From contig JARFIW010000835.1 of the NCBI GenBank assembly GCA_036346225.1, positions 434,001 through 498,000 on the forward strand: 64,000 nucleotides of DNA, given 5' to 3'. This document shows, piece after piece, positions 12,828 to 64,000 of the stretch (position 1 is its first letter; every line of letters starts with the position of its first letter). Made by a program: the position numbers and the translations under genes. The notes below the pieces were generated by a model. The model ran no database searches and had not been told where the DNA came from. It saw nothing but the letters and a program-made list of their open reading frames with translations. The stretch comes from Platerodrilus igneus. Taxonomy: Eukaryota; Arthropoda; Insecta; Coleoptera; Lycidae.

Positions 12828-13442
12828 CTATCTGAGATACATTTTGTACAATAAATACATAGTTAATACAATTGTTACAGTGATTAATAAAATTGTCCAA
12901 CCACTGATATTGTCGTAGTGTAGTTTTGGCACTTTTACTTCGTTTAAATGTTCTTTATAACTGTCTATTAATTTTACGGCTTGGTTGAGGTCATCTAGGT
13001 CTAGATGTTCTAGTTGCATTGGTTTTCTGATGATTTTGTCTTCTTCGGTTTGTATAATCCTGAACTGTAGTTTGGGTAGATTTGCGAATTTCTTCGTTAT
13101 TGCTGGGTTTTGGTATACTCGAATAATTTCGTTTTTCACTTTTAAATAACAATCTTCTTTTATTGTGATTACCTTGCTTCCAATTAAAGCTATGCTGTTT
13201 TTGTCTTGGTTGCAACGGGCGGTTGCTATTACTTCTTGTGAAAAATACATTATAATTTGAATAAGGGCCGCTATACCTGCGGTCACGTTTCCAATGCTCC
13301 ACCCGAAGGTACTACATTGTTTGTGGAAATACAGCATTCCATTTGTTGTCCGTAACTTTCTGATTTTCATATTGTTAATTTGTACTGGTTTTTGACTCGC
13401 AGTTCTCGTAATGATAAGAGAATCTTTATAGTTGTACTTCAC
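12828..13442 (-). pseudogene. env: Errantivirus-like envelope protein, C-terminal part
   Basis: This 204-residue minus-strand frame ends with a hydrophobic stretch of about 20 residues (ILLITVTIVLTMYLLY) and a short basic tail, as expected for the membrane anchor of a gypsy-type Env. It follows the frame at 13602-14354 after a gap of about 160 bp that still looks Env-derived, so at least one frameshift or stop separates the two. Positions 13288-13319 match the SINE family A tail at 55522-55553 with one mismatch, an oddity discussed in the findings. The ATG chosen is only the first Met of the open stretch. Confidence 0.65.
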
Positions 13443-13601
13443 AAGGGTTATCCATTTGAATAGCTGTCGTCGTTAATGATTGACATAAATATTGGCTGGA
13501 TGCCACTTCTTTGCATTTTTCATTCGTGAAGCCATACCTATGTTCATTTAGGGAAAGGAACTTGGTTTTAAGAATAATAACTTGATACTGGCTAGCAACT
13601 T

Positions 13602-14354
13602 TCATGGGGAAAGCAAATAAATGATAATAATTATAAGGGTTAATTCTATTATGGGGATTTCTGTTAAAAACGTAATTTTATAATTTTTTACATAACCTTT
13701 TACTATGGCTATTGTTTCAAATAAAAGTATGTTAGATTCTGTTACTTCAAAGGGTAGTTTACTGTTAATTATGAGTGATCTAATTCCTAACAATTCATTT
13801 AATAAATCAATTGGTTCTATTACACTAGCTTGTAGTGTGTTTAATTTAGCAAATGTTACAACGTTCTCTAACGTGGCTAAAATTTGTTCAATTATGGTAG
13901 TAGTTGATATCATTTGATTGAATATCGTGTTAAATCTTATTAAGTCTTGCATTCCTAGCATTGTGGTTTGCATGTTACTTTCAAGGTGTATTATTCTGTT
14001 GGTTATACTGTCCTGGTTTTTTACTAATTTACTTAATGTATTATTGAATTTTATTATGGTTGACTGAGGTAAGGATATTTGCTTTCTAATAATAGTTTTT
14101 ATGTTATTCTGGTTTTCAATTAGTTGTTGTATTGCGTTGTCATATCGTACAGCGTCTTGGTTGTCTAAATTACCTGCGATCGCTTTTATAATATTACCTA
14201 GTCCGTTAATAAATCCTCTTTTCTGTCTTGTGACTTGGTCTGTTGGTATTAATCGAGTGAATTTGTCGTTTATGTTCTTTAAGATGTTTTCCATTATGTT
14301 TTTGTAATTAAGCATTTTTATTGCGTATTCTTTTCCAAATTTGGTTGTGTCCAT
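13602..14354 (-). pseudogene. env: Errantivirus-like envelope protein, N-terminal part with furin-type site
   Basis: The 250-residue frame contains RQKR followed by a glycine-rich hydrophobic segment (about residues 43-60), which is the furin cleavage site and fusion peptide arrangement known from errantivirus Env and related baculovirus F proteins. Long helical repeats follow, as in a fusion subunit. It ends in a hydrophobic stretch near 13602. Upstream, to about 14545, the signal-peptide part is in another frame and broken. In intact elements this protein would sit in the membrane and mediate entry; this copy is interrupted at least twice. Confidence 0.7.
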
Positions 14355-14508
14355 TGATTGTTTCAGTAATTATTTTTAAAGATATAAAATTCTTGTTTTA
14401 GTTCGGGTAAATCGAATTTTTGTGCGAATGTCCAGTAATCTTTTGTATTTTGCATACTTCCCAATTTTACTGGTAGTATACAGGGGTTGTTTTTAATGTT
14501 TTTCACTA

Positions 14509-16950: not shown

Positions 16951-18692
16951 TTAATGTTGTTTACTGGATTTGAAGTGATTCGAGTTGTATAGAGTGGAAT
17001 AGAATCTATGTGAGTCTTCCACATCTTGTTTGTTGTTTAAACATTGTTTTTCTTTATTGATGTGGTAAGATTCTAAGAACAATCTTGTTTTGTAATGTGG
17101 CTCCTTTTCTAATATTTCTGTTTCTTCGAATGCGGGAGTATGTTTGGTTGCATATACATGTGTGGAAAGTGCACATTTGTTGGGTTTGCGTTTACAGTCG
17201 CTTCTATGTTGGGTTAGACGACTCTTCAACCACTGGGAAGTTTGGCCAATGTAACAAGCCTGGCAACTGCAGACGATCTTGTAGATTAGGTTACTGTCAA
17301 GTAATTTAGGTGTAGGGTTCTTTATTTTAGTGAAAAGATTCTGAATAGTATTGTTGTATTCGAAGGAAATGGTAATGTCTGGTTGTTTGAGTACCTTAAC
17401 CAACAGTGGAGTTAGTCTTTGTATGAATGGCAATTTCTTGTGCATAATGTTGTTGTGTTCTGTTGATAAGTTTTTAGGATTGTTGTTGATTGTCAGAGTA
17501 TTGGTGTAAATGAGTTTACGTAAAAGTTGTTTGGGGTAGCCATTATTTAATAAAGTATTAAAGAGAATTTTCTTGTTTTTGTTTAAAAATTGTGGGTCAG
17601 AGATCTTCTGTATGCGTTGTTTCATGGCATTGATTGTGCCGACTTTATGTTTGAATGAATGGTTAGAGAAGAAATTTAGATATCTACCTGAATTGGTAGG
17701 TTTGGTATACCAGTCAAAGATTAAAGAGTTGTTAGGTCCTCTGATGACTATGGTATCGAGGAAAGGTAATCTTCCATTTATTTCTATTTCACTTGTGAAT
17801 TGTAGATGCTCATTAAAGCTGTTGAATGTGGCTATGGTTTCTTTAATATTGTCGGGTGGGGTTGAACATATTATGTCATCGACGTACTTGACGAGGAATG
17901 TCATTTCATAAGGTAGTCGTGGAAGCACAGAGTCTAGAAGGGAGTCCATAACAATCTGGTTAATGACAGGTGATATTGGGGAGCCCATTGGTGTGCCGAA
18001 TAACTGGAGATAATAACAATCTTGAAAAGCGAAATAGGTGTTGTTGAAGATAAGGTTAACAGTACTTAGGAAATAATCTACTGAAATTTTGCAGTGAGGT
18101 TCAATAGTTGACCATTTTTCTTTGATGATATTGAGGATTAAGGTTAGTGGAATGTTAGTAAATAACGATGTGACATCTAGAGAGATAAGAATGTGATTTT
18201 TGGGAAGTTTAAAGTTTTTGAATTTGTCTACGAATGTGAAACTATCTTTGATGTTGTAGTTTTTAGGTGGAAAAGCAATTTGAAGTATTTTTGAAATGAA
18301 GGTGGCTACCAAATACGTGGGAGTATTTACAGATGAAATGATAGGTCTGAGTGTAAGTAAAGGTTTGTGGATTTTTGGTAGTCCGTAGTATTTGCCTGCG
18401 ATTGCATTGCAGATGTATAGTTGTTTCTTTTCATTATCGTTTAACATGCTTTTATTGTGGAGTAATTTTATATGATCGTTGACACGTTTTTGGGTGGTGA
18501 AGGTTGGATCTTGACGTAAGAGTTTATAAGTTGTAGTATCAGATAACAATTCTAAAGATTTATCGACATATTGTTGCTTGTCTATGATGACAGTGACAGC
18601 ACCTTTATCAGCTTTGGTTACAATTAAATTAGGGTTATCAGATAAAAATCTTTTTGCTTTGTAGAATTGTGATCTGAATTCGTTTTTATTGG

Positions 18693-18696
<4 letters not shown>
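16951..18696 (-). CDS. Penelope-like reverse transcriptase with GIY-YIG endonuclease
   Basis: The minus-strand frame is open from the TA run at 18697 to the stop at 16951, about 580 codons without a break. The first Met is at 18549, but the sequence upstream (with a KADKGAVTVIIDK motif) is homologous to other Penelope-like proteins, so the true start is lost by truncation. Counting from that Met, RT motifs include SLDVTSLFTNIP (about 123), PMGSPISP (187) and the catalytic YVDD (222-225). The C terminus holds the GIY-YIG nuclease: IYKIVC (422) and CYIGQT (432) followed by R and H residues. The protein copies RNA into DNA at a nick. The intact frame makes it the youngest-looking coding element in the window. 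Confidence 0.9.
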
Positions 18697-18742
<46 letters not shown>

Positions 18743-18746
<4 letters not shown>

Positions 18747-19248
18747 ATATGGTCTAAAACATTTCGTTGCCCATATTATTGCTAAAAATTCTTTCTCAAT
18801 TGTGCTGTATTTTTATTCTGTTTAATTTAGTGTCTGTGATGCGTGGCTGATTGGTTTATCGCTACTTTACCTTGGCTCAATACTGCGTTCGATGCGTAGG
18901 TTGTCAATATAAATAGTTTTGCAAATCTGGATATTCTAATACAGGGTGATTCGTAAGGATGCATTTAATTTTCTCTACTGCCTTTATAAATTCTGGGGTG
19001 TGTTCAATCTTGTTGCCTTTCTTTAAAAGTTTATTAGTGGTTTGGTTATTTGTGCGTAATCTTTTATGAATTTTCGGTAATAACCACTGAGTCCTAAAAA
19101 TTCTTTAATTTCTTTATTAGTTTTGGATAGGGAGTAATTTAGTACTACGTTCGTGTTGTCTGGGTTTGGCATAACTTCATTAAGTGTTATTATGTGTCCT
19201 AAAAATGCTACTTCTTTTTGTGCAAATTCACTTTTATCTAATTGAACT
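18743..19248 (-). pseudogene. RNase H N-terminal part of errantivirus-like Pol
   Basis: This minus-strand segment continues from RT and reads TIEKEFLAIIWA and FRPYLY close to 18743, the core RNase H block (glutamate in IEKE). It is cut there by the TA microsatellite and the Penelope-like element; the matching downstream half is at about 16156. Stops between 19248 and 18850 show it is not translatable as one frame. Confidence 0.7.
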
Positions 19249-33511: not shown

Positions 33512-33806
33512 AAATATTCAAATTTTCCTATCATTTTTCCCTCACTACCTTCTCGCACTGACGCATTAAATTCGCCCATAACTATTAAATTCTCATCTCC
33601 CTTTACTCTTCTCACTATACTATCTATATCCTCGTATACCTTTTCTACTTCCTGATTCTCGTACGAGTTGTTGACATGTAAACCTGTACTAAAACAGTGT
33701 ATGTGGGTTTTTTACTCAATCTAACCATAATTATTCTATCACTTAATTGTAAGTACTCTTTAACTTTACGTCCTAATCTTTTATCTAACACTATTCCTAC
33801 CTCTGC
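33512..33806 (-). pseudogene. RTE LINE copy B: middle of endonuclease
   Basis: The minus strand corresponds to 57200-57490 of the plus-strand RTE copy: VMGDFNASV, VYEDIDSIVRRVKGDENL and upstream parts, with small breaks. At its right edge (33806) it is cut by the Polinton-type element, and the frame resumes at 45446. The target word CTCTGC belongs to codons of the conserved GQAGVG region. Confidence 0.75.
33801..33806. repeat. 6-bp target duplication, left copy
   Basis: CTCTGC here and at 45440-45445 flank the Polinton-type element. The uninterrupted RTE sequence at 57190-57204 has this site once (as CCCTGC on the complementary strand). Confidence 0.85.
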
Positions 33807-33948
33807 AGTAGACCATTTTCAGGCAATCCACCCCCACATTTCCACCAGCATCCACATTTCCACACTCATCTGGACCAATTTACATGTAAATTCCCATAAG
33901 GAGTAAATGAGGGAGATGAATCTTATCCTTGCTCCGCCCTGTGGACCG
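33807..33948 (+). repeat. Left terminal inverted repeat of Polinton-type element
   Basis: This pairs with 45298-45439 over all 142 positions except two. It is purine-poor on this strand with repeated CCACATTTCCA words. The sequence turns into homopolymer-rich noise within about 15 bp of its inner end. Confidence 0.9.
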
Positions 33949-36900
33949 AGAGCCACAGGAAACCCCAAAACCCCAACCAGGAACACCCCAAAAACCCCAA
34001 ACCCCCCAAAGAAAAAAATTTTTAAAAACCCCAAAAACCCCATTTTTTAAAAAATTTGGGAACAATTTTAAAAGCCCTTTTTTCTTTTAATTTTTTTAAA
34101 ATTTACAAATTTTTGGGAAAACCTTTTTTTAGGGTTTTTTTTTTTAAAAAAATTTTTATAGAAACCCCCCGGGGGGGGGGAAAAAAAAAAAAAAAAAAAT
34201 TTTTTAAAAATTTTTAAAATTAACAAACCTTTAAAATTTTACCCCAATTTAAATTTTTTTTTTAAAAAATTTTAAATTTATTCCAAAAATTTTCCCATAA
34301 TTTAAATTTTAAACCCTTTAACCCTTTTAAAATTTTAACCCAAATTTATTTTTTTTTTAAAATTTAATTTTAAAACAATTTTTTTTTTAAATTACATTTT
34401 TCCAAATTTGACCAAATTTTTTCATTTTTTTATTTTTTTTTTTTTAAAATAAACGTCTTTCCCAAAAAATTTGGGGGTTTTTTTTTTAATGGTTGTTAAA
34501 CCTCAACCATTTCACACCCTTTACCAAAATTTTACGTTCTTTCCCTATATTTTATTTCGAAACCTTTACAAATTTTTTTTCAAACCCTTTAAAGGGGGAT
34601 GAACGTTTACTTAAGACACGCCGTTTTTCCGCCCCCCCAAAACAAAAACCCAATTGCCGGGGGATGAACCCCTTTGCAACCATTTTTCCCCTTTGGGGCC
34701 CCCCATGCCAGGGCCGCAAAAAATTTGCAAAATTTTAAAAAAACCCAATTAAACCTTGTAAGAACAAATCAAAGAATCGCGACCCCCCAAAAGAAAAACC
34801 AATTTCCGAAACACCGAACGAATTGGAGACAAATGAGTCAAATTCGCAGCGTCCTCAACCCGGGGCGCCCGGTTCGCCCCGGTGCGAATGCCGTTGAAAA
34901 CATCGGAAAACCCGGGTGGAAAAAATCCCCAAAGGTGCAACCCACAAAAAATTGCCCAAAAAAAAATGCTTCAAAAAAAAATTTTAAAATTTTATAAAAC
35001 AATTTTAAAAACTCATTTAATTTCTTTTAAATCAAAAAACCCCAAAGGAAAAGATTGCAAAAACCCAAATCACCCATTTTCGGGAAAAAATAATTTAAAC
35101 ACTTCCTGTAAACCAATTTTTTAACAGCCTGCAGCCTTTCCCCCTTTATTTTAAAAACACCTAGTTAACCAAAAATTTTTATCACCGTTTTTCGTAAAAA
35201 TTACCTTTTTCCATGATTTTGATTTCAGAATAATTTTGCCCGAATGGAGCAAAACCTCAAAAGGTAAAACCGTCATTCCCACTCCCTTTTTTCCCCACAT
35301 TTTCAAACCCCGGGGAAATTTTTAAACCCCAATTTCACCCGAGCCGAAACCTTTTTTGCGCAACCGAAAACGCATTCCCTTTCCCTTTGCCCTTTTTCAA
35401 AAAATTTTACCACCCGACTTTTCCCTTTTTCCAAAATTTTTAAACAAAGACCCTTTAAAACCAACCCCACTTTCTTCCAACGACCCACCAATTCCCACGC
35501 CCTTTAAATAAACCTGTTTAACCCACCCTTTTTTTTTAAGTCCACGAAATAAAACCCCAAAAACCCTTAAATTTCTTTTCCCCCAGGGCTTTAAACAAAA
35601 AATTCCCCCCCATTCCCAACCCCCCTTTGGTTTTTTCTCAAACTTGGTTACAACCTTTCCCCAAAAACCAAAACTTCTTCCCCAAACAAATACCCTTCAC
35701 TTTTTTCCCAACCAAATTTTTAATTTCGGGTAACTAAAATTTTGGATCAACAAATTTAAAAAAACAATTTCATTAATAAAAACCTTAAAATTTTTTAAAT
35801 TTTTTCCCCCAAACAAAACCCTTTTCAGAACAAAACCCAACCCCCAAACCAAAATTAACAATCCCGGGCAGGGAAGGGTTCCCCAAAAACCCCAAAAACC
35901 TTTAACCTTTAAAAAAATTAAATTCCTTTCACTTCCCGAAAACCAAAAGGGTTTCCATTTCAAACAAGAAAATTTTGGCCGGGCCCACGTTTTTCCCACC
36001 GCTCCCCTTTCCAAACCCCGCCAAAACCCGCCCACCCCCCCCCTAGCCGCCCCCTTTTTCAGCCCCAAAATTTAAACATCCCCAACACCCCACGGATCAT
36101 TTAAACCTTTCCACAGCTCCTTTGAAACCACAAAGGGGTTTTAACCCCGACCCTTTCCAACCTAAACCCCGGTTGAACCTTTTACCTTTTGATTCCCACC
36201 CCATTTTCCCCAACCCCCGGCCCCTTCCCCAAGTTTTCCCCCTGGAAAAAACCCTCCTTTCCACTTTAACCATGGTTTTTAAGGGTTTAAGACCAGCCCA
36301 CCCCTTTTCCCCCCACGGAAAAGTTTCCCCATCACCCATAACGTTTAATTGCCCTTTTAAAAAACAAAAGGTTTTACCCAACCAACCCAAATATTTTGGT
36401 CCTCCACTAAAACTTTTTCCCAACCCTTCACCCCGCCCCTCATTTGGATTCCCCAACCTTTCCCCCCACCTTTGCACTGCAAAAAACCCTTTCAACACCA
36501 TTCCAAAATTTCCCAAGACATTTGGTAAAATAACCCCATCTTTGAAGATTTTTTTTTCCCTTAAACCCAATTAAAACCCAAACCCCCATTTTTCTTTCCC
36601 CCACCCCTTTTCCCAAAAAACCCCCCCAACGGCCCCGGTCCGAACCCTTCATTTTTAAAACCCCTTAAACCCAAATTTTTTCCAAACACACCCCGGCACC
36701 CCGAAATTTTAAGCCCACTCAAGGAAACCCCAAACAAAAGCCCGCCGACCCCGGAAAACCATTCCCGCGCCCCCCAAACAACACCCCTTTTCGTCACCAA
36801 TTTGTTTTCATACAAAGGCCAAACATTCCATCCTTAAAACCCCAAACGAATTTAAAGGAAATTTTCCATTTTTTCCCCCCAACCATGGGCCCCGGAACCA

Positions 36901-37690
36901 AGGGTTTTAAACCCCCCTTTTCCTCTTTACCCTGGCCCCGAAAAAGCCCGAAAAGAAGGAACCCCCAAATTTTTAAAAACTTAAAATTTTTCAAAACCGG
37001 CCAGTTTAAAAAAAAGCCCCAAAAATTCAACCAAGCCATTTTTAGTTTTTTTTGGGGCCCTTTCACCAAAATTTTCCATTTCTACAAATTTCGTAAATAT
37101 AAATTTTTAAAATCCAAAAATTTATACCCCGGGTGTTGCCCAAACCACATTTCCCTAACCCCCTCCCCACCTTGAAAAAAAAAATTTGAACCCATGAAAC
37201 CTAAACATGAAACCCAAAGAAAGCAATCCGAAAAAAAAGCCAGAAAGGCCAACAAAATTCAAATAAAAGTTTTTAAATTTTTAAAAAAGAAAGGATTTTA
37301 TAAAAAAAACAGGCAAAAATTTTTATTCCCGCCCCCCACCAAAAATTTTTTTTAAAAAATTTCCAAAATTTTTTTTAAAAAACTATTAAAAAGAATTTTA
37401 AGGGTTTTTTGAGAAAATTTAAAAAGTTTTTCTTGGGTTAAAATGGGGAGGGTGGATTGGAAAATAGGGTTTATTTCAAATTTTAATGGTCATAAATGGT
37501 CATGGGGAATTTTTAAATTTACCCTAATTAACACCAAATATATTGCATGGACCCCGGGTTGGCGGTAAAACAATTGAATTTGGAATTATCCCCACCTTAA
37601 ATCATAAGGCAATTTTTCGAAATTTATATTATAGTGAAACGGTAAAATGAGGTTAATGTTAACTTTTCAACCTTTGGGAATAAAGTAAAC
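33949..37690. other. Homopolymer-dominated, probably low-quality assembly
   Basis: The stretch is composed of runs of A, T and C (CCCC, TTTT, AAAA), very few isolated bases, a strong C-over-G excess on the plus strand, and blocks such as ten G followed by nineteen A near 34171-34199. Codon structure, dinucleotide content and repeats of any known element are absent. The change from clean TIR to noise is abrupt on the left and gradual on the right (37400-38000). Open frames here (for example 36097-36570 minus) are compositional. I interpret this as uncorrected long-read sequence. Confidence 0.7.
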
Positions 37691-37721
37691 CACAAATGGC
37701 GATTTATTTGGTGTTAAAAAA

Positions 37722-39226
37722 TTGGCAACAATAATCTTAAAATATTGGTTAAATTTGTTAGTAAGGGAAAATGCTACTTGGCAAACAAATTACGCCATTT
37801 TGGACAATATAATTTGGTTAAAATTTGGATTTTGCACCGAACGATTCCCAAAAAAAGGATGTTTACCTAAAAAAAATTTTTATTTAAAGCATTACGAAAA
37901 ATTCAAATTTGTTTGTAGGCAGGTTTAAATAAGCCCGTTTTTCTAAACCTAACAAGAGGGAAGGGAAAAGAAATTAAAAAAAAGGGTGCAAATAAAAATT
38001 CCAAAACCAAGGATAAAAGTGGCTCGTTTGTTAAACTTTAAAATAAGAATATTAGAGAAAAAAGATTATTTTATCTTTTACAGGTGTAAAAGATTTTGCG
38101 GATATTTAGCAAGATGGAGATGTGTAATTATTTAACTACAAACCATAACTTTTGCTATAAGGGCGAATACGAAGAAAAGTGTAATATTATAGTTGACAAC
38201 GATAAAACTGTAGGAATTGATTGTTTAACATGGCTAACAACCAATGCAAGAATTAAGATATACAACAAATTTGTGTTCAGATAACAAGTCCTGGTGTTAA
38301 TAAACAACTTGGCAATCATATACTAGATTTTTACGTTGTCCAGATGTACGTTTAAGGGAAACATTTGCGTCTACTTTGGCCAAAGAACATGGTATTACGC
38401 GATTGAAGCGACAATATACAACTGTGCAATTGGAAGTATGTCAGTGGGAACGGGTTATAAACCCTTAAAAGACTGTTTAACCTTATTGGAAGATAGTGTT
38501 ATACTTCCTAAAGGCGCCAATGTACTCGGTACCACTTGTCAAAATGTGGAGTGTTATCGGACAAGCTACAAAATAGCTGTTGTTTAGTCTATAATAACCT
38601 GCTACAGTACGTGTATTGGGGAATGGCAATACAAAGAAATTGACGGGCTTGCAAATTGTTGTCCGAAAACCAGAGGAAAGGGAAAATTGATAAAGTATGT
38701 GCTTTGGCTTTTAGTTTTAACTATTTACCTTAAATTATTTGGAGATAGTAGAGGAAGATAGCCAAGATAAAATAAAAATCTTACACAAGTGCTACATTAA
38801 AGCAGGTAGTACATATTTTACACAATCTGCAACACCATATTCTACAATTCCAAAAGAAATAGTCATTTCGGAATTGGGATTGATAATACAAATTCGTCCA
38901 GAGGTTGTAAAATAAATATTGGTAGTAAACTCATCCGTTTACGCTAAAGGAAATTGCCCCATTATGTATACCATACGCTGTAAGTGGAAGGAAAAGACAA
39001 CTGGAATTAGAGGAAATGGATGCAAAAGGCGAAAATTGGACTACATGGAAAACACTGCGAAATACGCGATCAATACAAAGATGTGTTAGACAAAGAACAT
39101 CTTATTAGAGAAAATGAGGAAGAATTAAAAGATTATTTTATGTGCCGATGGACTGACTTAGATACATCCGGGTTGTACAAGTTGTATGCATTTGCGGTTA
39201 GTAAGAAAGACTCTTTAGTTATGTAA
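37722..39226 (+). pseudogene. Unrecognised Polinton-type element gene, frame-broken
   Basis: Several short frames (37722-37928, 38096-38284, 38336-38587, 39020-39226) fall into one apparent protein if single-base shifts are allowed. Motifs that look real because codon use is normal are NHNFCYKGEYEEKCN, WLTTNARIKIYNKFVF and RLRETFAS followed by KEHGITR. The pattern of a KIYNKF block followed by a TRLEATIY-like block loosely recalls replication-initiator proteins of rolling-circle elements, but I cannot support that from sequence alone. The breaks may be sequencing errors, since this gene adjoins the noisy region. Confidence 0.4.
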
Positions 39227-39340
39227 GTTCTTGCAGAAAAGGATGGTACTAAACCGTATACTTTTTAAAAGGTTATTCTAAAACGTATTTATCAAAATGG
39301 CAGATAACAAAGACGAACTAAGGAATGCGGGTTTGTAACC

Positions 39341-39758
39341 TTGGCGTACACCACACGCAAAGGGGTTCCGCTAAACATTTATTTATTTAGTAAAGAACCT
39401 TTCGGATCATTTAAAACCGAGGGTCTTACAACCTATAACAACCATATATTCCCAAAAGTGGTGGATATGCAACTACCAACGGTGTGTGGGAGAAAAGGAT
39501 TTCCAATACCGACAAGAAGAAGTCGATCAAGCTAACAAGATACGTATGCAGGATATAGTGGGAAAGCTGCGATTAAAAGATTGTCACAAGCTGCAAGAAT
39601 TACACGAAGGAATGGATCTGGTTGTCGGCGGAATCAAAGACTTTAAATATAGAGGCAAACTTCGGTACATTTTACAATTCGAAAACCTAGACGGTCTTTA
39701 TGTATCAAACTATTGGTTAGAAAAGGAGATAGAAGACTTGGTTCGATTTAAATTTTAA
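39341..39758 (+). pseudogene. Unrecognised small gene in Polinton-type element
   Basis: Two overlapping frames (39341-39535 and 39486-39758) join by one frameshift near 39486 into a protein of about 135 residues. It has no known motif; the C terminus reads YVSNYWLEKEIEDL. A piece of the same sequence (AAACCGAGGGTCTTACAACC) recurs at about 40848-40867, so the gene or its start was duplicated within the element. The function is unknown. Confidence 0.4.
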
Positions 39759-39989
39759 GCTGCGAATAAAATTAGATAAAATTAAAACCACTGCAAACAA
39801 ACATAAAGAAAGGACTGTCTTCTGTGTATAACTTTGTATTAAAATTAAGTTTAAATGACTCCATGCTTGGCATTAAATATTTTAAATTTGTTATGTATAA
39901 TGTCAGAATAAACATTTTATAATAGTATATAACATTGTTCTTTATTTATAAAAGGCTGTGACGTTACCCCGAAATAGCATCGCACAGAG

Positions 39990-40085
39990 AGGGATGCGCA
40001 TGGGCAGCGCGCATGGGGGGGTGCACGCGCAGGGGGCGCATGGGCAGGGTGCATGCGCAGGGTGCGCATGGGCTGGGATGTGTCT
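39990..40085. repeat. GC-rich tandem words
   Basis: GCGCATGGGCAG, TGCACGCGCAGGG and TGCATGCGCAGGG alternate over about 95 bp in otherwise AT-rich DNA. The pattern is a short degenerate tandem of about 13-27 bp. Confidence 0.5.
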
Positions 40086-42450
40086 GGGCGTACCGAGGGA
40101 AGCGGATGTTAACAGTCACCAAGCATCCAATTTTTATTTGGATGGGAGTACTTGCCGCGTATGTATCCGGAGTAAAAATACGATTTGTACACGCAGCTTA
40201 TTAATAAAATTAGTTTATCGAGGGAAGATGAAAAGGTACATCATTCCTAATAGTACAACAATCTACGCATGGGGCTAAAGATATAAGATAGTTGTTTATA
40301 TTTGTATAGATTTTGTAAATCTATTGTTATATTAGTTTTAAGATTCCATAATTTTTAAGTTCTTCTCCCACCTTCCAAATCCTTCCGGCTTCTATCCTGG
40401 TTGACAGAGATACGTGTTATTCCACGTGGTATTCGCGGGACACTGCGGTTTTAGATTTTAGGGAAAGGTTGGTTAAAGCATATGTCTTGGTTAGCGGAAA
40501 AAGGTTTTAAAGATGGAGTTAAATAAAATGGGCAAAAATTGATTTGGGTCTTTAAAAGGATAACTTTGTATGGGTGGTCCTATTTAAAATTTATTTACAG
40601 ATTTGGGGTCCCTAGAAAATTTAAATTAGTTGATACCTAGCAAAATATATTTATCTTAAAAGAGTGACTAGCGTATAATAAATACAATATAACACTTGTC
40701 AACAAAAAGTTGTAGGAAAATTAAAGACGTATTTAATGGGGGTCCAGTATTAGAATTTGTTGGTAGTAATGTTAAGTCCTACTGTATTGTAGGCGAGAAA
40801 GATACGATTAAAAGATTAAAGGGGTTTTACGAATTGTGTTAAGTAAAACCGAGGGTCTTACAACCTATAACGAGCATATACCTCCAAAAGGGTAGACATG
40901 CAACTACGCAGCAGTGCGCGGGAGAATAAAATTCTCCAATAAGAAATTAAAGTTTCCATGTACGTAGCACCAGTCATTGGGTAAGTAGAAATGTGGAACC
41001 TATAAAGACGATTATTAATTGTGGTTTAGAAAATAGTAGTTTTCGTGGACTAAATAAAATAGCTTAGACTGGTTAATGTATATTTACATACTCGCATATC
41101 CACAAACATCTGCTTACGTCCACAATATCGATACCGGTAGTTTTTTTAACAAATAGTAGGAAAGATACGTCAGGTGTTAGTGCGTGAAGCCCATAGGATC
41201 GTTGGATTCAAAAAGAACGGTGCGGCGGAATGTATGGTGGTCTCCGTTAGAATAATCGAAAGTGGTTAATCAATTGTATTAGATGTTTAAATAAGCGAAA
41301 GTGTAAAGCCTACATAAACAAAAATTTAATTATCCGACAAAAAGTGCGCGATGTGCTACACTTATAAAGAAAGTAGGAATGGTGCTTTTTAGCGGCCCTA
41401 CGTAAAAAGGGCGACTGACTTTTCAAGCAACTACAAGAATAGCAGTAGCGCAGAGAAGGGGTATGATGTATTATACAGTTGCTGCAAAATATGTTAGTTT
41501 ACGCTAGCTCGGATGTGTAATTGATCACGACTTAAAGATCCTCGGAGGTTTAAAAATTCTCCCCATTGTCGTTTGAAAATGTTTGTAAATTATCAGAACA
41601 GGAGCGGGTCGGAGTTTAAGTTGGAATGATTGACTGAGTTTTTCTACCTTTACGAGGGAATTGGGTTGACAGACATCGAGCATCTAATTCTTATTTGGAC
41701 GAATCAAGTACTTACCGGTTCTAGAAATCATTACGATCGACCGCTATGCGAAAGTGTAAAAGCCTACAGAAGCATAATTATCAGACGAAAAGCGCCGATG
41801 TGCTATAGAAAGTATAAAAATTGGTGCTTTGCCCGGTCCAACAGTAAAAAGGAGAGTGACTTTTCTAGCAATTACAAGAATAGCAGTAGCGGCGAAGGGG
41901 TATGCATGTATTATACAGCGCATTGTTGCTCTAAAATATGTTAGTTTACGAGAAGCTCGAACGTGCACAAATTAAATTTCAATCTATAATTAACCACGGT
42001 CGTAAAATGGAAATTAATGGGTAATTTAATACCGTTAACATATACTTTCGCTTGGTGATTCATTTGGAAAATATTCAAGCCTATCATTTCCTAAAGTATG
42101 ACGTAAAGTTATTTAAAATTAAATTGTTGTAAGTATCCTGTAGACAACAAGTTGGTATTTTTTAGTAATGGTTTAAAGTGTTTTTGGTTATAGTAGCACT
42201 GCATCTTCTACAGCACGACTTGCACACAATTTGTGTGTGTGCTACCACCCTTTGGATTTTTAATATGCACGCGATCCGTATAACATGGAAGACGTTTCCG
42301 ATGTTTTACTAACGGATTCGCACATGGACAAGCGAACCGGGGCATCATTGCGCTAAATGTATTGGACGAGCTGCGAGGATTATGACGTCATTTAGTTCCT
42401 CGCAATCCCAACTTCGTTCGGTGTCTTCGAAACCTTCGGTTTGCATTCTA
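40086..42450. other. Polinton-type interior, no intact gene
   Basis: Only scraps are visible. A weak relative of the 43440-45240 repeat unit lies at about 40545-40630, and a duplicated block lies at 41270-41530 and 41690-41990. Codon-like composition suggests decayed genes on both strands, but no motif of a capsid, ATPase, protease or integrase could be recognised. Confidence 0.4.
41270..41990. repeat. Diverged direct duplication of about 250 bp
   Basis: Blocks 41270-41530 and 41690-41990 share AAAGTGTAAA, CGATGTGCTA, AATGGTGCTTT or its variant, CTACAAGAATAGCAGTAGCG and AAATATGTTAGTTTACG in the same order, with small gaps and substitutions. The reverse strand of the second block is open over 74 codons (41744-41968), which may reflect an old gene. 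Confidence 0.55.
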
Positions 42451-42455
42451 TAGGG

Positions 42456-42463
42456 TACATAAA
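42456..42463 (+). promoter_or_regulatory. TATA-like element before the zinc-finger gene
   Basis: TACATAAA lies about 30 bp before an initiator-like stretch (ACTTTTAGTTATAAGTTAGT at 42480) and 83 bp before the ATG at 42546. The arrangement fits a core promoter, but no transcript data are available. Confidence 0.3.
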
Positions 42464-42545
42464 GCAGGTACGCGAGTAAACTTTTAGTTATAAGTTAGTT
42501 CGCTTACAAGTCAAGTCTTATAGTGGGATTTTGTTTTGTACTAAA

Positions 42546-43262
42546 ATGGTACCTGCAAACGTTTTTAAATGCGAGCCCTGTGACGTCTACTTTACCAGGA
42601 GGGATGCTCCAAACGGCACCAGAACAAAGTGGGTGCAACATCGTCCAGGTTGCTTATACATCCGCCCGCAGCAAAGTACTTAAACTGTGGGACTTGCGGT
42701 TTCGCTTTACGAGAATGGAACTTACAGCGACACAAGGAAAAACAGCATGGTATGTCATTGCCGTAAACGTTCAGCTCCGCCAGCTGTTAAAGGACCTTGT
42801 ACGAAACAACCACGAATTATGTGTAAAGTATGCGATTTCGAGATGGAAAAACTACCTATGCCGCACATTTAAGGAGCAACAGACATAAAATGTATCAGTT
42901 ACCGCTACTAGCGACGATGGTGTAGAAATGGTTAGCACGCGTTTAACAACCGTATGGCTAGCTATCGCATAAATAACGCCAGCGTCGACGATGGAGTGTC
43001 CGAGTTTCTTTCAGAAAGAGCGATTTATTCGATTAATAAAAAAAAGAATACAACATACAGCAGTAAAAGATGCGAACCTCCGTTTAACCAAAATGGGGAA
43101 GAGAAGTCCGATTGTTTTGTGGTTATAACGACTTCTAGTAATCTGGAAAATATGTACGAGGTCTTAAGCGAAACCATGCGAACAAAATCAGAGGAATTTA
43201 AAATGGAGTTTTCTTTGGAAAAAGTGCCATTTAAAATAAATTTAATAAGTTGCCCGATATGA
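42546..43262 (+). pseudogene. C2H2 zinc-finger protein, possibly PolB N-terminal region
   Basis: Allowing frameshifts, three finger-like segments follow each other: FKCEPCDVYFTR (42564 on), CGTCGFALREWNLQRHKEKQH (42685-42747, split here only for description) and CKVCDFEMEKTTYAAHLRSN with RHK (42822-42885). A stop at 42923 ends that frame. The next frame (42954-43262) contains ENMYEVLSETM and EKVPFKINLI. In insect Polinton DNA polymerase B genes, I recall finger-like segments followed by a FKINL-type motif before the exonuclease part; on that memory this could be a polymerase start whose body is lost. The polymerase motifs themselves are absent. Confidence 0.45.
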
Positions 43263-43439
43263 CAAGTTCTATTAAAATAAAAATTGTAAATATTATTTAA
43301 AAGTGGTTTACAAAATTTAAATGTATTAGTAAAAATTGTTTAAAAAAAGTTTTAAAAGGTTTTAGTTTTCTTTGGTAAAGTGGGAAATTTATTTTAGAGG
43401 GGTTTGTGTAAAATGGAAGGGTTGTTCGATTTTAAATCT

Positions 43440-45240
43440 GTTTACAGATTCGGATTTCTAAAATTCTAGACTAAAAGATGTCCATGTATAAAAATTTATA
43501 AGAACGCTCAAAGGTTGCTACAGGTAAGAAATCTTAAAATTGGGGTAGCTCTCTTGGGGATGGCGCTATCTAAAAATTTAAAGAGATTTGTGTAGCTGAG
43601 AAAATTCTAATATTGATTGATACCAAACAAGGTAGGTTTATCTCGTGGGTGGAAATGTGGAGAAAGATTTATCTCGCAGAAGGTATATGTGTAACTTTGC
43701 AGGGCGTGGTCCGATTTCAAATCTGTTTACAGATTCGAATTTTGCGTAAAATTCTAGACTAAGGAGATGTATCGCATGTATAAAAATTTATAAGAACGCT
43801 CAAAAGTCGCTACAGGTAAGAAATCTTAAAATTGGGGTAGCTCTCTTGGGGATGGCGCAATCTAAGAAATTCCTAGAAATTCGGGTAGCTGAGAAAATTC
43901 TAATATTAATTGATACCAAACAAGATAGGTTTATCTCGTGGGTGGAAATGTGGAGAAAGATTTATCTCGCAGAAGGTATATGTGTAACTTTGCAGGGCGT
44001 GGTCCGATTTCAAATCTGTTTACAGATTCGAATTTTGCGTAAAATTCTAGACTAAGAAGATGTATCGCATGTATAAAAAATTTATAAAACGCTCAAAAGT
44101 CGCTACAGGTAAGAAATCTTAAAATTGGGGTAGCTCCTTGGGGTGATGCAATCTAAAAATTCCTAGAAATTTGGGTAGCTGAGAAAATTCTAATATTAAT
44201 TGATACCAAACAAGATAGGTTTATCTCGAAAGATGCAATGGCTAGACGAGGAAAACTATTTGTTAGGTTTGCTTATAGAGCAAAGAGCAAAATTTAGAAG
44301 ATCAGGACTTTAAAGGGGTATAACTTTGCAGGGCGTGGTCCGATTTCAAATCTGTTTACAGATTCGAATTCTGCGTAAAATTTTAGACTAACAAGATGTA
44401 TCGCATGTATAAAAAAATTTTTAAGAACGCTCAAAAGTCGCTACAGGTAAGAAATCTTAAAATTGGGGTAGCTCTCTTGGGGATGGCGCAATCTAAGAAA
44501 TTCCTAGAAATTCGGGTAGCTGAGAAAAATCTAATATTAATTGATACCAAACAAGATAGGTTTATCTCGTGGGTGGAAATGTGGAGAAAGATTTATCTCG
44601 CAGAAGGTATATGTGTAACTTTGCAGGGCGTGGTCCGATTTCAAATCTGTTTACAGATTCGAATTTTGCGTAAAATTCTAGACTAAGAAGATGTATCGCA
44701 TGTATAAAAAAATTTATAAGAACGCTCAAAAGTCGCTACAGGTAAGAAATCTTAAAATTGGGGTAGCTCCCTTGGGGGTGATGCAATCTAAAAAATTCCT
44801 AGAAATTTGGGTAGCTGAGAAAATTCTAATATTAATTGATACCAAACAAGATAGGTTTATCTCGAAAGATGCAATGGCTAGACGAGGAAAACTATTTGTT
44901 AGGTTTGCTTATAGAGCAAAGAGCAAAATTTAGAAGATCAGGACTTTAAAGGGGTATAACTTTGCAGGGCGTGGTCCGATTTCAAATCTGTTTACAGATT
45001 CGAATTCTGCGTAAAATTTTAGACTAACAAGATGTATCGCATGTATAAAAAAATTTTTAAGAACGCTCAAAAGTTGCTACAGGTAAGAAATCTTAAAATT
45101 GGGGTAGCTCTCTTGGGGATGGCGCAATCTAAGAAATTCTTAGAAATTCGGGTAGCTGAGAAAAATCTAATATTAATTGATACCAAACAAGATAGGTTTA
45201 TCTCGTGGGTGGAAATGTGGAGAAAGATTTATCTCGCGGG
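43440..45240 (+). repeat. Higher-order tandem array (A about 295 bp, B about 340 bp)
   Basis: Units begin at about 43479, 43764, 44058, 44394, 44689 and 45030, marked by ATGTATCGCATGTATAAA. Unit types alternate A-B-A-B-A with an AB period of about 631 bp; the AB pairs at 43764-44393 and 44394-45029 are nearly identical. Each unit encodes a short peptide start (MYRMYKK and AQKSLQ) directly followed by CAGGTAAGAA, a consensus splice donor, and a later CTTTGCAGGG that looks like an acceptor. Type B has an extra 26-codon frame starting MQWLDEENYLLG. The array lies next to the right inverted repeat. Confidence 0.8.
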
Positions 45241-45297
45241 TGGAAAGAATGCGGGTGTGACGTAATCAAAGTGGTTGGTGTAAAAAATTCCACAAGG

Positions 45298-45439
45298 CGG
45301 TCCACAGGGCGGAGCAAGGATAAGATTCATCTCCCTCATTTACTCCTTATGAGAATTTACATGTAAATTGGTCTAGATGAGTGTGGAAATGTGGATGCTG
45401 GTGGAAATGTGGGGGTGGATTGCCTGAAAATGGTCTACT
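45298..45439 (-). repeat. Right terminal inverted repeat of Polinton-type element
   Basis: Complement of 33807-33948 with two mismatches. It ends GGTCTACT, then the target copy CTCTGC at 45440-45445. Confidence 0.9.
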
Positions 45440-45445
45440 CTCTGC

Positions 45446-48329: not shown

Positions 48330-49330
48330 GAAATACGTAACAACATCGACAGTTCTACATGAGTTCCAACAACTACGATAACTTTTAGCCTGAGTTCCAG
48401 TGTCTAACCATTTTTAAATAATTCTTTAATTTTTGGTCTAGCACGACACTCGGAAAAAACTGACGTGCCGATCATTTCTAGCAAATTTTTCGATATATAT
48501 CGACAGTTCTACATAAGCTCCAACAACTACGACCACTTTTAGCCTGAGTTCCAGTGTCTAACCATTTTTAAATAATTTTTTAATTTTTGGTCTAGCACGA
48601 CACTCGGAAAAAAGTGTGCTGATAATTTCTAACGAATTTTTTGATATATATCGACAGTTCTACATGAGTTCTAACAAATACGATAACTTTTAGCTTGAGT
48701 TCCAGTGTCTAACCATTTTTAAATAATTTTTCAATTTTTGGTCTAGCACGACACTCAGAAAAAGTGTCGTCCTGTTCATTTCTAGCGAATTTTTCGACAT
48801 ATATCGACAGTTCTACATGAGTTCTAACAGCTACGACCACTTTTAGCCTGAGTTCCAGTGTCTAACCATTTTTAAATAATCTTTTAATTTTTGGTCTAGC
48901 ACGACACTCGGAAAAAAGTGTCGTGCTGATAATTTCTAACGAATTTTTTGATATATATCAAAAGTTCTACATGAGTTCTAACAACTACGACCACTTTTAG
49001 CCTGAGTTCCAGTAGCTAACCACTTTTAAATAATTTTTCAATTTTTGGTCTAGCACAACACTCGGAGAAAAGTGTCGTGCTGATCATTTCAAGTAAATTT
49101 TTCGATATATCTCGACAGTTCTACATGAGTTCCAACAACTACGATAACTATTAGCCCTAGTTCCAGTGTCTAACCATTTTTAAATAATTTTTAATTTTTG
49201 GTCTAGCGCGACACTCGGAAAAAAGTGTCGTGTTGATCATTCCTAGTGCATTTTTCGATATATATCGACAGTTTTACATGAGTTTTAACAACTACGATCA
49301 CTTTTAACCAGAGTTTCAGAATTTCAACCA
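48330..49330. repeat. 153-bp satellite with internal hairpin, about six units
   Basis: CTAGCACGACACT occurs, with variants, at 48438, 48592, 48743, 48896, 49050 and 49203, giving spacings of 151-154 bp. Each unit holds AGCACGACACT and, 6-8 bases later, AGTGTCGTGCT (perfect in most units), so an 11-bp hairpin is present, followed by CATTTCTAG and a TTTTTCGATATATATCGA palindrome. Units are diverged from each other by a few percent to perhaps ten percent. Confidence 0.85.
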
Positions 49331-57011: not shown

Positions 57012-57746
57012 GTGATAGGGACTTGGAATGTAAGGTCATTACTTAGAGTAGATAAGTTAACGAATTTATTAGTCGAAATGAGAAAGGAAAAGCTGGACAT
57101 TTTAGGTATTAGTGAGGTGAGATGGCCAGATAGTAATGACTTTTGGAAAGATAATTATAGAATAATTACAACTTCTTCAACTAATGGACAGGCAGGGGTA
57201 GGAATAGTGTTAGGTAAAATATTAGGACATAAAGTTAAAGAGTACTTACAATTTAGTGATAGAATAATTATGGTTAGATTGAGTACAAAACCCACAGACA
57301 CTGTTTTAGTACAGGTTTACATGCCAACAACTCAGTATGAGGATGAGGAAGTAGAAAAGGTATACGAGGATATAAATAGTATAGTGAGAAAAGTAAAAGG
57401 AGATGAGAATTTAATGGTTATGGGCGATTTTAATGCGTCAGTGGGAGAAGGTAGTGAGGGAAAAATGGTAGGAAAATTTGGGTATGGCAGACGAAATGAT
57501 AGAGGAGAAAGATTAGTTGAGTTTTGCCAAGAACATAGATTAGTAACTGTAAACACCCTATTCGAACAACATGTTAGGAGAAGATATACCTGGAAAGCGC
57601 CAGGTGATAGGGCTAGATACCAAATAGATTATATTTTAGTTAAACAAAGATTTAGAAACCAAGTTAAAAACTGTCGTAGTTATCCAGGGGCTGACATAGA
57701 TAGCGATCATAACTTAGTTAAAATGAAGTGTAAACTAAAATTCTAA
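57012..57746 (+). pseudogene. RTE LINE copy A: AP-type endonuclease domain
   Basis: This 245-codon open stretch covers a complete AP-type endonuclease: TWNVRS (4-9), GISEVRW (32-38), MGDFNAS (137-143), IDYILV (205-210) and SDHNLV (231-236). It nicks target DNA to prime reverse transcription. The stretch begins at a GTG codon shortly after an in-frame stop (57003), so the genuine start is upstream and lost. It ends at a stop at 57744, after which the polyprotein should continue into RT. The pattern matches RTE-clade LINEs. Confidence 0.8.
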
Positions 57747-63815: not shown

Positions 63816-64000
63816 GGTCTCGGTGGCGTAATTGGTAAACGTATGGTTCCGGCAAAACCAGGATACAGGTTCAAGTCCTGTCCAAGACCTTATATTTTCC
63901 ATCTTTCAATTACTAGCTCGATTTGAAATGATCATTTGGGCTTTGCATAAAAGTCTAAGTTATTATTTCATCTTATTCACTATAATACGATAGTATTTAT
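63816..64000 (+). mobile_element. SINE family B with tRNA-like head
   Basis: Bases 63817-63889 fold like a tRNA: acceptor GTCTCGG with CCAAGAC (one mismatch), D arm GCGT/ACGT, anticodon arm TGGTT/AACCA with loop CCGGCAA, and T arm ACAGG/CCTGT with TTCAAGT. A box GTGGCGTAATTGG and B box GGTTCAAGTCC are present. The tail continues to the window end and is the same as 12473-12635, which shows that it is a dispersed SINE and not a lone tRNA gene. The loop has C in place of the universal U33. Confidence 0.8.

Follow-up and report, generated by a model that had tools for sequence, protein, structure and literature searches.

The window, a stretch of 64,000 nucleotides from the lycid beetle Platerodrilus igneus (contig JARFIW010000835.1, hereafter C835, positions 434,001 to 498,000), carries an inserted element flanked by a 6-bp target-site duplication. 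The features assigned to it are as follows (window coordinates, strand, and the approach from which the assignment results).

33801–33806, no strand: left target-site duplication CTCTGC (flank comparison and empty site)
33807–33948, + strand: readable part of the left terminal inverted repeat (end-to-end comparison)
33949–38000, no strand: ruined consensus that probably represents a left palindrome arm (homopolymer runs)
37659–39828, + strand: 804-aa gene of the family, bases 47–2412 of 2412, with broken frames (feature mapping)
40844–40941, + strand: a ∼100-bp piece of the 804-aa gene, present here for the second time (self-comparison and feature mapping)
41101–42300, + strand: conserved inner region with a duplication of ∼230 bp, 41292–41517 and 41745–41965 (self-comparison and feature mapping)
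42499–43262, + strand: C2H2 gene, frames broken, related to the N-terminal module found in a DNA polymerase of Polinton type (Pfam and protein comparison)
43427–45237, + strand: tandem array of six units of two types (∼293 and ∼340 bp), the last one cut (repeat search)
45298–45439, − strand: right terminal inverted repeat (end-to-end comparison)
45440–45445, no strand: right target-site duplication CTCTGC (flank comparison and empty site)

The inverted ends (33807–33948 and 45298–45439) are identical at 140 of 142 positions and terminate in AGTAG..CTACT, so that the 142-bp match with two mismatches, the AG..CT termini and the CTCTGC on both sides described in an earlier note on this DNA were all seen again. 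The same is true for the uninterrupted target in an RTE copy: when the flanks are joined at one CTCTGC, the RTE DNA at 57074–57480 aligns across the junction (407 bp, 92%, one gap). The insertion of the window copy is genuine, as is evident from the inverted ends, the duplication and the unbroken RTE relative at the empty site. The nearest named relatives of the RTE protein in the protein collection include those of aphids, a locust and a psyllid (53–61% identity). Elsewhere in the window, there are two long frames at 12828–14369 (− strand), which by eye resemble the envelope gene of an LTR retroelement, a 600-aa open frame at 16951–18753 (− strand), resembling, again by eye, a Penelope-like reverse transcriptase, a separate tandem array at 48345–49319 with a period of 154 bp and 6.4 copies, and a tRNA gene at 63817–63889 (+ strand; 52 bits).

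The tandem array previously noticed between the ends reappears in our repeat search with its six units, and the C2H2 gene proves to be a gene of the family, the Pfam family zf-C2H2 scoring over its cut-off in the protein of a better-read copy while the frames in the window are broken. The ends can no longer be regarded as limited to 142 bp, since the repeat breaks off at 33948 because ruined sequence begins there. This stretch is distinguished by its homopolymer runs, with a mean run length per kb of 2.12–2.58 in the four bins of 34001–38000, the remaining 60 bins of the window having values of 1.22–1.56; in 150-bp windows, the run length jumps directly after the left end and drops back near 38.1 kb. 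From 37659 on, sequence of the family is recognisable inside the ruined stretch, with many bases missing. Over 37659–44229, the window copy exhibits 165 substitutions, 197 deletion events and 26 insertion events when compared with copy L041, and the corresponding numbers are 248, 169 and 24 for L040, 220, 173 and 14 for L043, and 279, 143 and 31 for L045. Deletions outnumber insertions relative to all four copies and outnumber substitutions relative to L041 only; in the 341 bases before 38000, 48 deletions and no insertions are registered against L041. Compared among themselves, the four copies differ by 51–97 gap openings versus 222–310 mismatches in all six pairs, while 174–223 gap openings and 165–279 mismatches separate them from the window copy. 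When two of the window's tandem units are aligned over 341 columns, five single-base gaps and no substitution separate them.

We consider the stretch 33949–38000 to be probably the left arm of a palindrome. Its best raw match to the right arm has an E-value of 6e-6, as compared with 1e-4 for control DNA, and after homopolymer compression control DNA reaches 1e-16, which is better than any arm; overall, the stretch and control DNA align to the right arm about equally well. According to Spealman and colleagues (PMC7229812), inverted duplicates give rise to wrong and missed nanopore base calls, the affected region being slightly shorter than the preceding arm. In the window copy, the left arm was probably misread for this reason, provided that nanopores were used. 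The picture of 142-bp ends, a length of 11.6 kb and an interior without genes is largely an artefact: the window copy looks gene-poor because half of it is badly sequenced, its left side being unreadable and the frames to the right being broken by missing bases.

Other copies were searched for in the same 2.71-Gb genome. The search with the 142-bp left end, which the earlier note had proposed, returned 2007 first-look candidates; all 40 that were scored matched (three of them starting only at base 28), and the search revealed other copies sharing both the ends and the 6-bp duplications. All 46 matches beginning within three bases of the tip (some ends counted twice) read AGTAGACC. Nine oppositely oriented pairs of ends at most 25 kb apart were obtained from the 40 scored matches. 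Perfect 6-bp duplications flank eight of these (CTCTGC, AAAGAC, CATTCC, GATATC, AATCTG, AATAAT, TATATT and CAACTA), with an estimated chance of near 4e-4 for one such match, and the ninth pair, on C565, has no matching duplication (GCCCCG/ACTGCC). The two ends of a copy differ at 0–2 of 142 positions in all nine pairs, and inside the ends the other end-paired copies continue with sequence differing from that of the window copy.

All five long same-ended copies that were compared half against half possess palindromic arms, with lengths of 7.5 kb for C89 (98.9%, 21 mismatches and 51 gap openings), which is the longest arm measured, 4.8 kb for C1139 (98.5%, 26 and 39), 5.1 kb for C565 (93.5%, 85 and 148), 6.0 kb for C115 (98.7%, 13 and 56) and at least 5.9 kb for C1021 (98.1%, 15 and 79), where the fetched piece ends within the arm and two left segments match one and the same right arm. 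The differences between the long arms are gap-rich in all five copies. In two short copies the arms are much smaller, measuring 0.74 kb in C1154 (total length 5.3 kb) and 0.60 kb in C672 (5.7 kb). Mapping of 21 loci yields a common order of features from the tip to the inside, that is, the end, the ∼293-bp tandem units, the C2H2 gene, the inner region and the 804-aa gene, one or two copies of which surround the middle of the palindrome. As far as fetched, the mirror-image order is also present in C998, C526, C131, C1172 and C1267. Neighbouring C2H2 hits at most 25 kb apart (150 scored of 20440 candidates) form 12 pairs, of which 11 are arranged −/+, one +/+ (C577) and none +/−. The copy on C858 (∼8.8 kb, part fetched) has diverged ends and a left side with tandem units and without the C2H2 gene. 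Since the palindrome centre varies from copy to copy, and since the left arms of C1154, C672 and C858 are short or carry few features, the ancestral form may not have been a palindrome. In three copies, a second left end with the same 6-bp neighbour as the outer end was seen inside or beside the copy (C1021:7573659, C998:916088 and C672:4113107; loci L035, L025 and L033); either part of the element was inserted in tandem, or the assembly went wrong at the palindromes.

One could suppose that fold-back reads created the palindromes during assembly and that the true element is a plain Polinton derivative of 8–9 kb with ends of ∼1 kb, as in C858; the gap-rich arm differences, the second left ends in three copies, and the finding that C858, C672 and C1154 are not large palindromes are in accord with this idea. 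Such an artefact would, however, mirror one flank together with its six bases, whereas eight of the nine pairs repeat them directly, and in the window copy the flanks together make up a single RTE stretch. Moreover, the arms carry 13–85 mismatches per copy and their centres differ between copies, and we regard an artefact of this kind as very improbable. In the titles and abstract openings of the literature searched, we found no description of the palindromic family.

The C2H2 frame comprises, from stop to stop, 276–283 residues in the longest copies listed, and the tail of the protein has no match in the viral contigs or in the PDB. At least 115 matches to DNA_pol_B_2 (PF03175) over cut-off were registered in the genome (87 scored of 6269 candidates); none of those listed falls inside the examined family copies, and the open frames among them reach 1361 residues, one adjoining further long ORFs. 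The comparison with a polymerase refers to one of the 115 matches, located at C90:5229500–5240000 and read in the pieces L069, L070 and L071. The N-terminal piece of the 1361-aa frame in L069 matches the C2H2 protein with 54% over 142 residues (E about 1e-44), and a second match has 40% over 216 residues (E 4e-41), with E-values computed for one 2.1-kb piece. The C2H2 protein ends at LEININKYDPI, and the polymerase continues past the same point. About 0.4 kb beyond the polymerase frame, 49 bp of the tandem unit are found in L071 (98%, E 4e-20), and the polymerase and this piece have the same relative order and orientation as the C2H2 gene and the array in the arms. In L071 (C90:5229500–5232500), the shared piece adjoins a long run of G, possibly another sequencing fault. 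The element ends of the C90 region were not found in the three pieces read, a 17-bp match to the end sequence in L071 (E 0.004) being too weak for use. An ORF next to the polymerase (L070:2621–2992) matches Peptidase_C48 at an E-value of 0.007, which is below the Pfam cut-off and would suit a Polinton protease; by eye, the ORF looks adenain-like. Judged from these sequence comparisons, the C2H2 gene would encode what is the N-terminal module in Polinton DNA polymerases, with the polymerase part missing, and the arm looks like one Polinton end in which the polymerase gene has been cut to its N-terminus.

Integrase, packaging ATPase, protease and capsid were not found with Pfam in 34 ORFs of at least 65 residues from L040 and L063, that is, in parts of two copies, where besides zf-C2H2 weak and unrelated rows emerged that were judged to be chance (e.g., Ufm1, E 0.003), and 11 other ORFs did not match any Polinton core family. 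Of the protein-primed DNA polymerase B, the family appears to have retained the N-terminal C2H2 module only, cut before the polymerase. The profile searches of other copies that the earlier note had recommended produced no complete core gene; a Polinton-type polymerase was found elsewhere in the genome with PF03175, and protein comparison with it identified the polymerase fragment. A decayed but otherwise ordinary Polinton, its normal interior simply misassembled, would account for the ends and the duplication and would be in line with the DNA_pol_B_2 genes in the genome; yet the right arm of the window copy and the better-read copies carry another gene set in which no complete core gene was seen, and for the copies sampled we find this explanation hardly credible.

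The second gene of the family encodes a protein of 804 residues, its frame being open, without stops, in L056, L057 and L058. When the genome was searched with its first part (the 334-aa frame of C89), at least 120 matches were obtained (120 scored of 17723 candidates), and most of those scored have open frames shorter than 804 residues; the start of the gene lies in a frame of at least 320 residues at 13 loci and of at least 690 at five. For the five latter copies, dN/dS is 0.19–0.46 in all ten pairs, values which the choice of open frames biases somewhat. The gene shows signs of purifying selection. The protein matches no family in Pfam, PHROGs or NCBIfam, has no match among viral contigs, prokaryote contigs, phages and plasmids, and none in L069, L070 and L071 at an E-value of 0.1. 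Against the PDB, the entire protein gives one chance row only (E 1.6), its first part rows at E 0.4–0.5 and its middle part none. None of 15 frame pieces from the window scored over cut-off in Pfam. Frame pieces had no match among viral contigs, and they did not match the large protein collection either, a result weakened by word and length limits, while the RTE protein, as a control, finds insect proteins in the same collection. Scans of the viral contigs with peptide motifs and with the end sequence yielded four loci, judged to be chance, and three loci, estimated to be no more than chance, respectively. Two AlphaFold models calculated without relatives have pLDDT values of 31 and 36. The idea of a rolling-circle Rep-like protein found no support.

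Since the 804-aa gene is without a match in L069–L071 or elsewhere in the data searched, its product could itself be a transposase. In that case, the family would constitute a new autonomous superfamily of DNA transposons, its C2H2 module acquired from a Polinton and its arms formed by foldback-like recombination. The open frames under apparent purifying selection, the protein without a Pfam, PHROG or NCBIfam family or a credible PDB match, the large number of candidates in the genome and the fact that no other enzyme was detected in the scanned ORFs speak for such a superfamily. The 6-bp duplications and AG..CT ends are, however, features of Polintons, and the region of a Polinton-type polymerase contains both the C2H2 module and DNA of the tandem unit in the same order. 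On this evidence, a new superfamily seems unlikely to us.

Comparison with known systems places the family closest to Polinton/Maverick (adintovirus-like) elements in some respects and apart from them in others. It shares with them 6-bp target duplications (eight of nine pairs), inverted ends, which here begin with AGTAG, a C2H2 protein homologous to the N-terminal module of DNA_pol_B_2, and the 49 bp of the tandem unit found next to a resident polymerase gene. The vertebrate Maverick end motif is (AGT)2//(ACT)2 (PMC8097293); of the Polinton motifs (AGT)2//(ACT)2 or (AG)3//(CT)3, the family exhibits the first five bases of (AGT)2, the sixth base of AGTAGACC not fitting. In contrast to Polintons, no complete polymerase, integrase, ATPase, protease or capsid gene was found in the examined copies, and an 804-aa gene is present. 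The inverted ends of vertebrate Mavericks span 46–1447 bp (PMC8097293), a range which the long arms of ∼4.8–7.5 kb exceed and within which the arms of 0.60 and 0.74 kb fall. The 6-bp duplications are also reminiscent of IS3EU and GingerRoot (6 bp) and of Dada (6–7 bp). However, IS3EU and GingerRoot termini are described as TA..TA or mostly TA..TA (PMC10045372), unlike the AG..CT of the family, and in place of their IS3-like transposase the family has the 804-aa protein without a Pfam match; Dada-U6 elements are described as having no terminal inverted repeats and Dada as inserting into small RNA genes (PMC3706591), whereas the family has long inverted repeats and the window copy sits in RTE DNA.

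The Foldback/Galileo elements of the P superfamily also have long inverted arms, which vary in length and contain tandem repeats; these elements generate duplications of 7–8 bp and encode a P-type transposase. The family resembles them in its long, variable arms with tandem repeats and differs in its 6-bp duplication and in its 804-aa protein without a Pfam match. In the palindromic defective genomes of terminal-protein viruses, one end of the genome is duplicated in inverted orientation on either side of a short centre. The family may be likened to these in having inverted arms around a middle, and it is dissimilar in being present in many chromosomal copies.

Taken together, it appears quite likely that the window contains one member of an abundant, non-autonomous family of Polinton/Maverick origin, palindromic in its long form and equipped with the C2H2 gene and the 804-aa gene. 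The proposal of a non-autonomous Polinton-type derivative with a gene of its own is borne out by the shared ends, the 6-bp duplications and the kinship of the C2H2 protein with the N-terminus of DNA_pol_B_2. It had also been argued that copies with a different transposase and no Polinton genes would contradict a Polinton origin; the copies do lack a complete core gene and have the 804-aa protein as the product of their main gene, but a Polinton polymerase fragment is present. No complete Polinton core gene was found in the examined copies; a dependence of the family on Polintons is presumed, and it is probably mobilised by the resident ones. Its ends might be copied by protein-primed replication through the resident Polinton polymerase, insertion might be effected by the integrase of the resident Polintons, and the 804-aa protein might help in replication or mobilisation. 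The snapping back of a strand, by which palindromes form, occurs in terminal-protein systems, and a displaced strand that snaps back on itself could give rise to the palindromes observed here. Protein-primed systems are described as sliding back or jumping back on their terminal bases (PMC3480470), and the AGTAG terminus, which is near the vertebrate Maverick motif (PMC8097293), would suit such a step, if only indirectly.

A tentative reading, on which we remain somewhat doubtful, goes further: the family may be a palindromic satellite that lives on Polintons. It would encode only the DNA-binding N-terminal module of the polymerase and the 804-aa protein, borrow polymerase and integrase from resident Polintons, and have multiplied to probably thousands of copies. 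With the same reserve, such a satellite might be viewed as corresponding, among transposons, to a defective interfering genome or a virophage. The 804-aa protein is in any case large and conserved, and the databases searched yielded no relative of it; palindromic elements may also hide in assemblies behind one ruined arm. If the satellite reading is true, protein-primed replication of chromosomal Polintons would become testable, snap-back palindromes being its mark, and Polinton satellites would have kept the DNA-binding end of the polymerase, turned palindromic and grown abundant in an animal genome.
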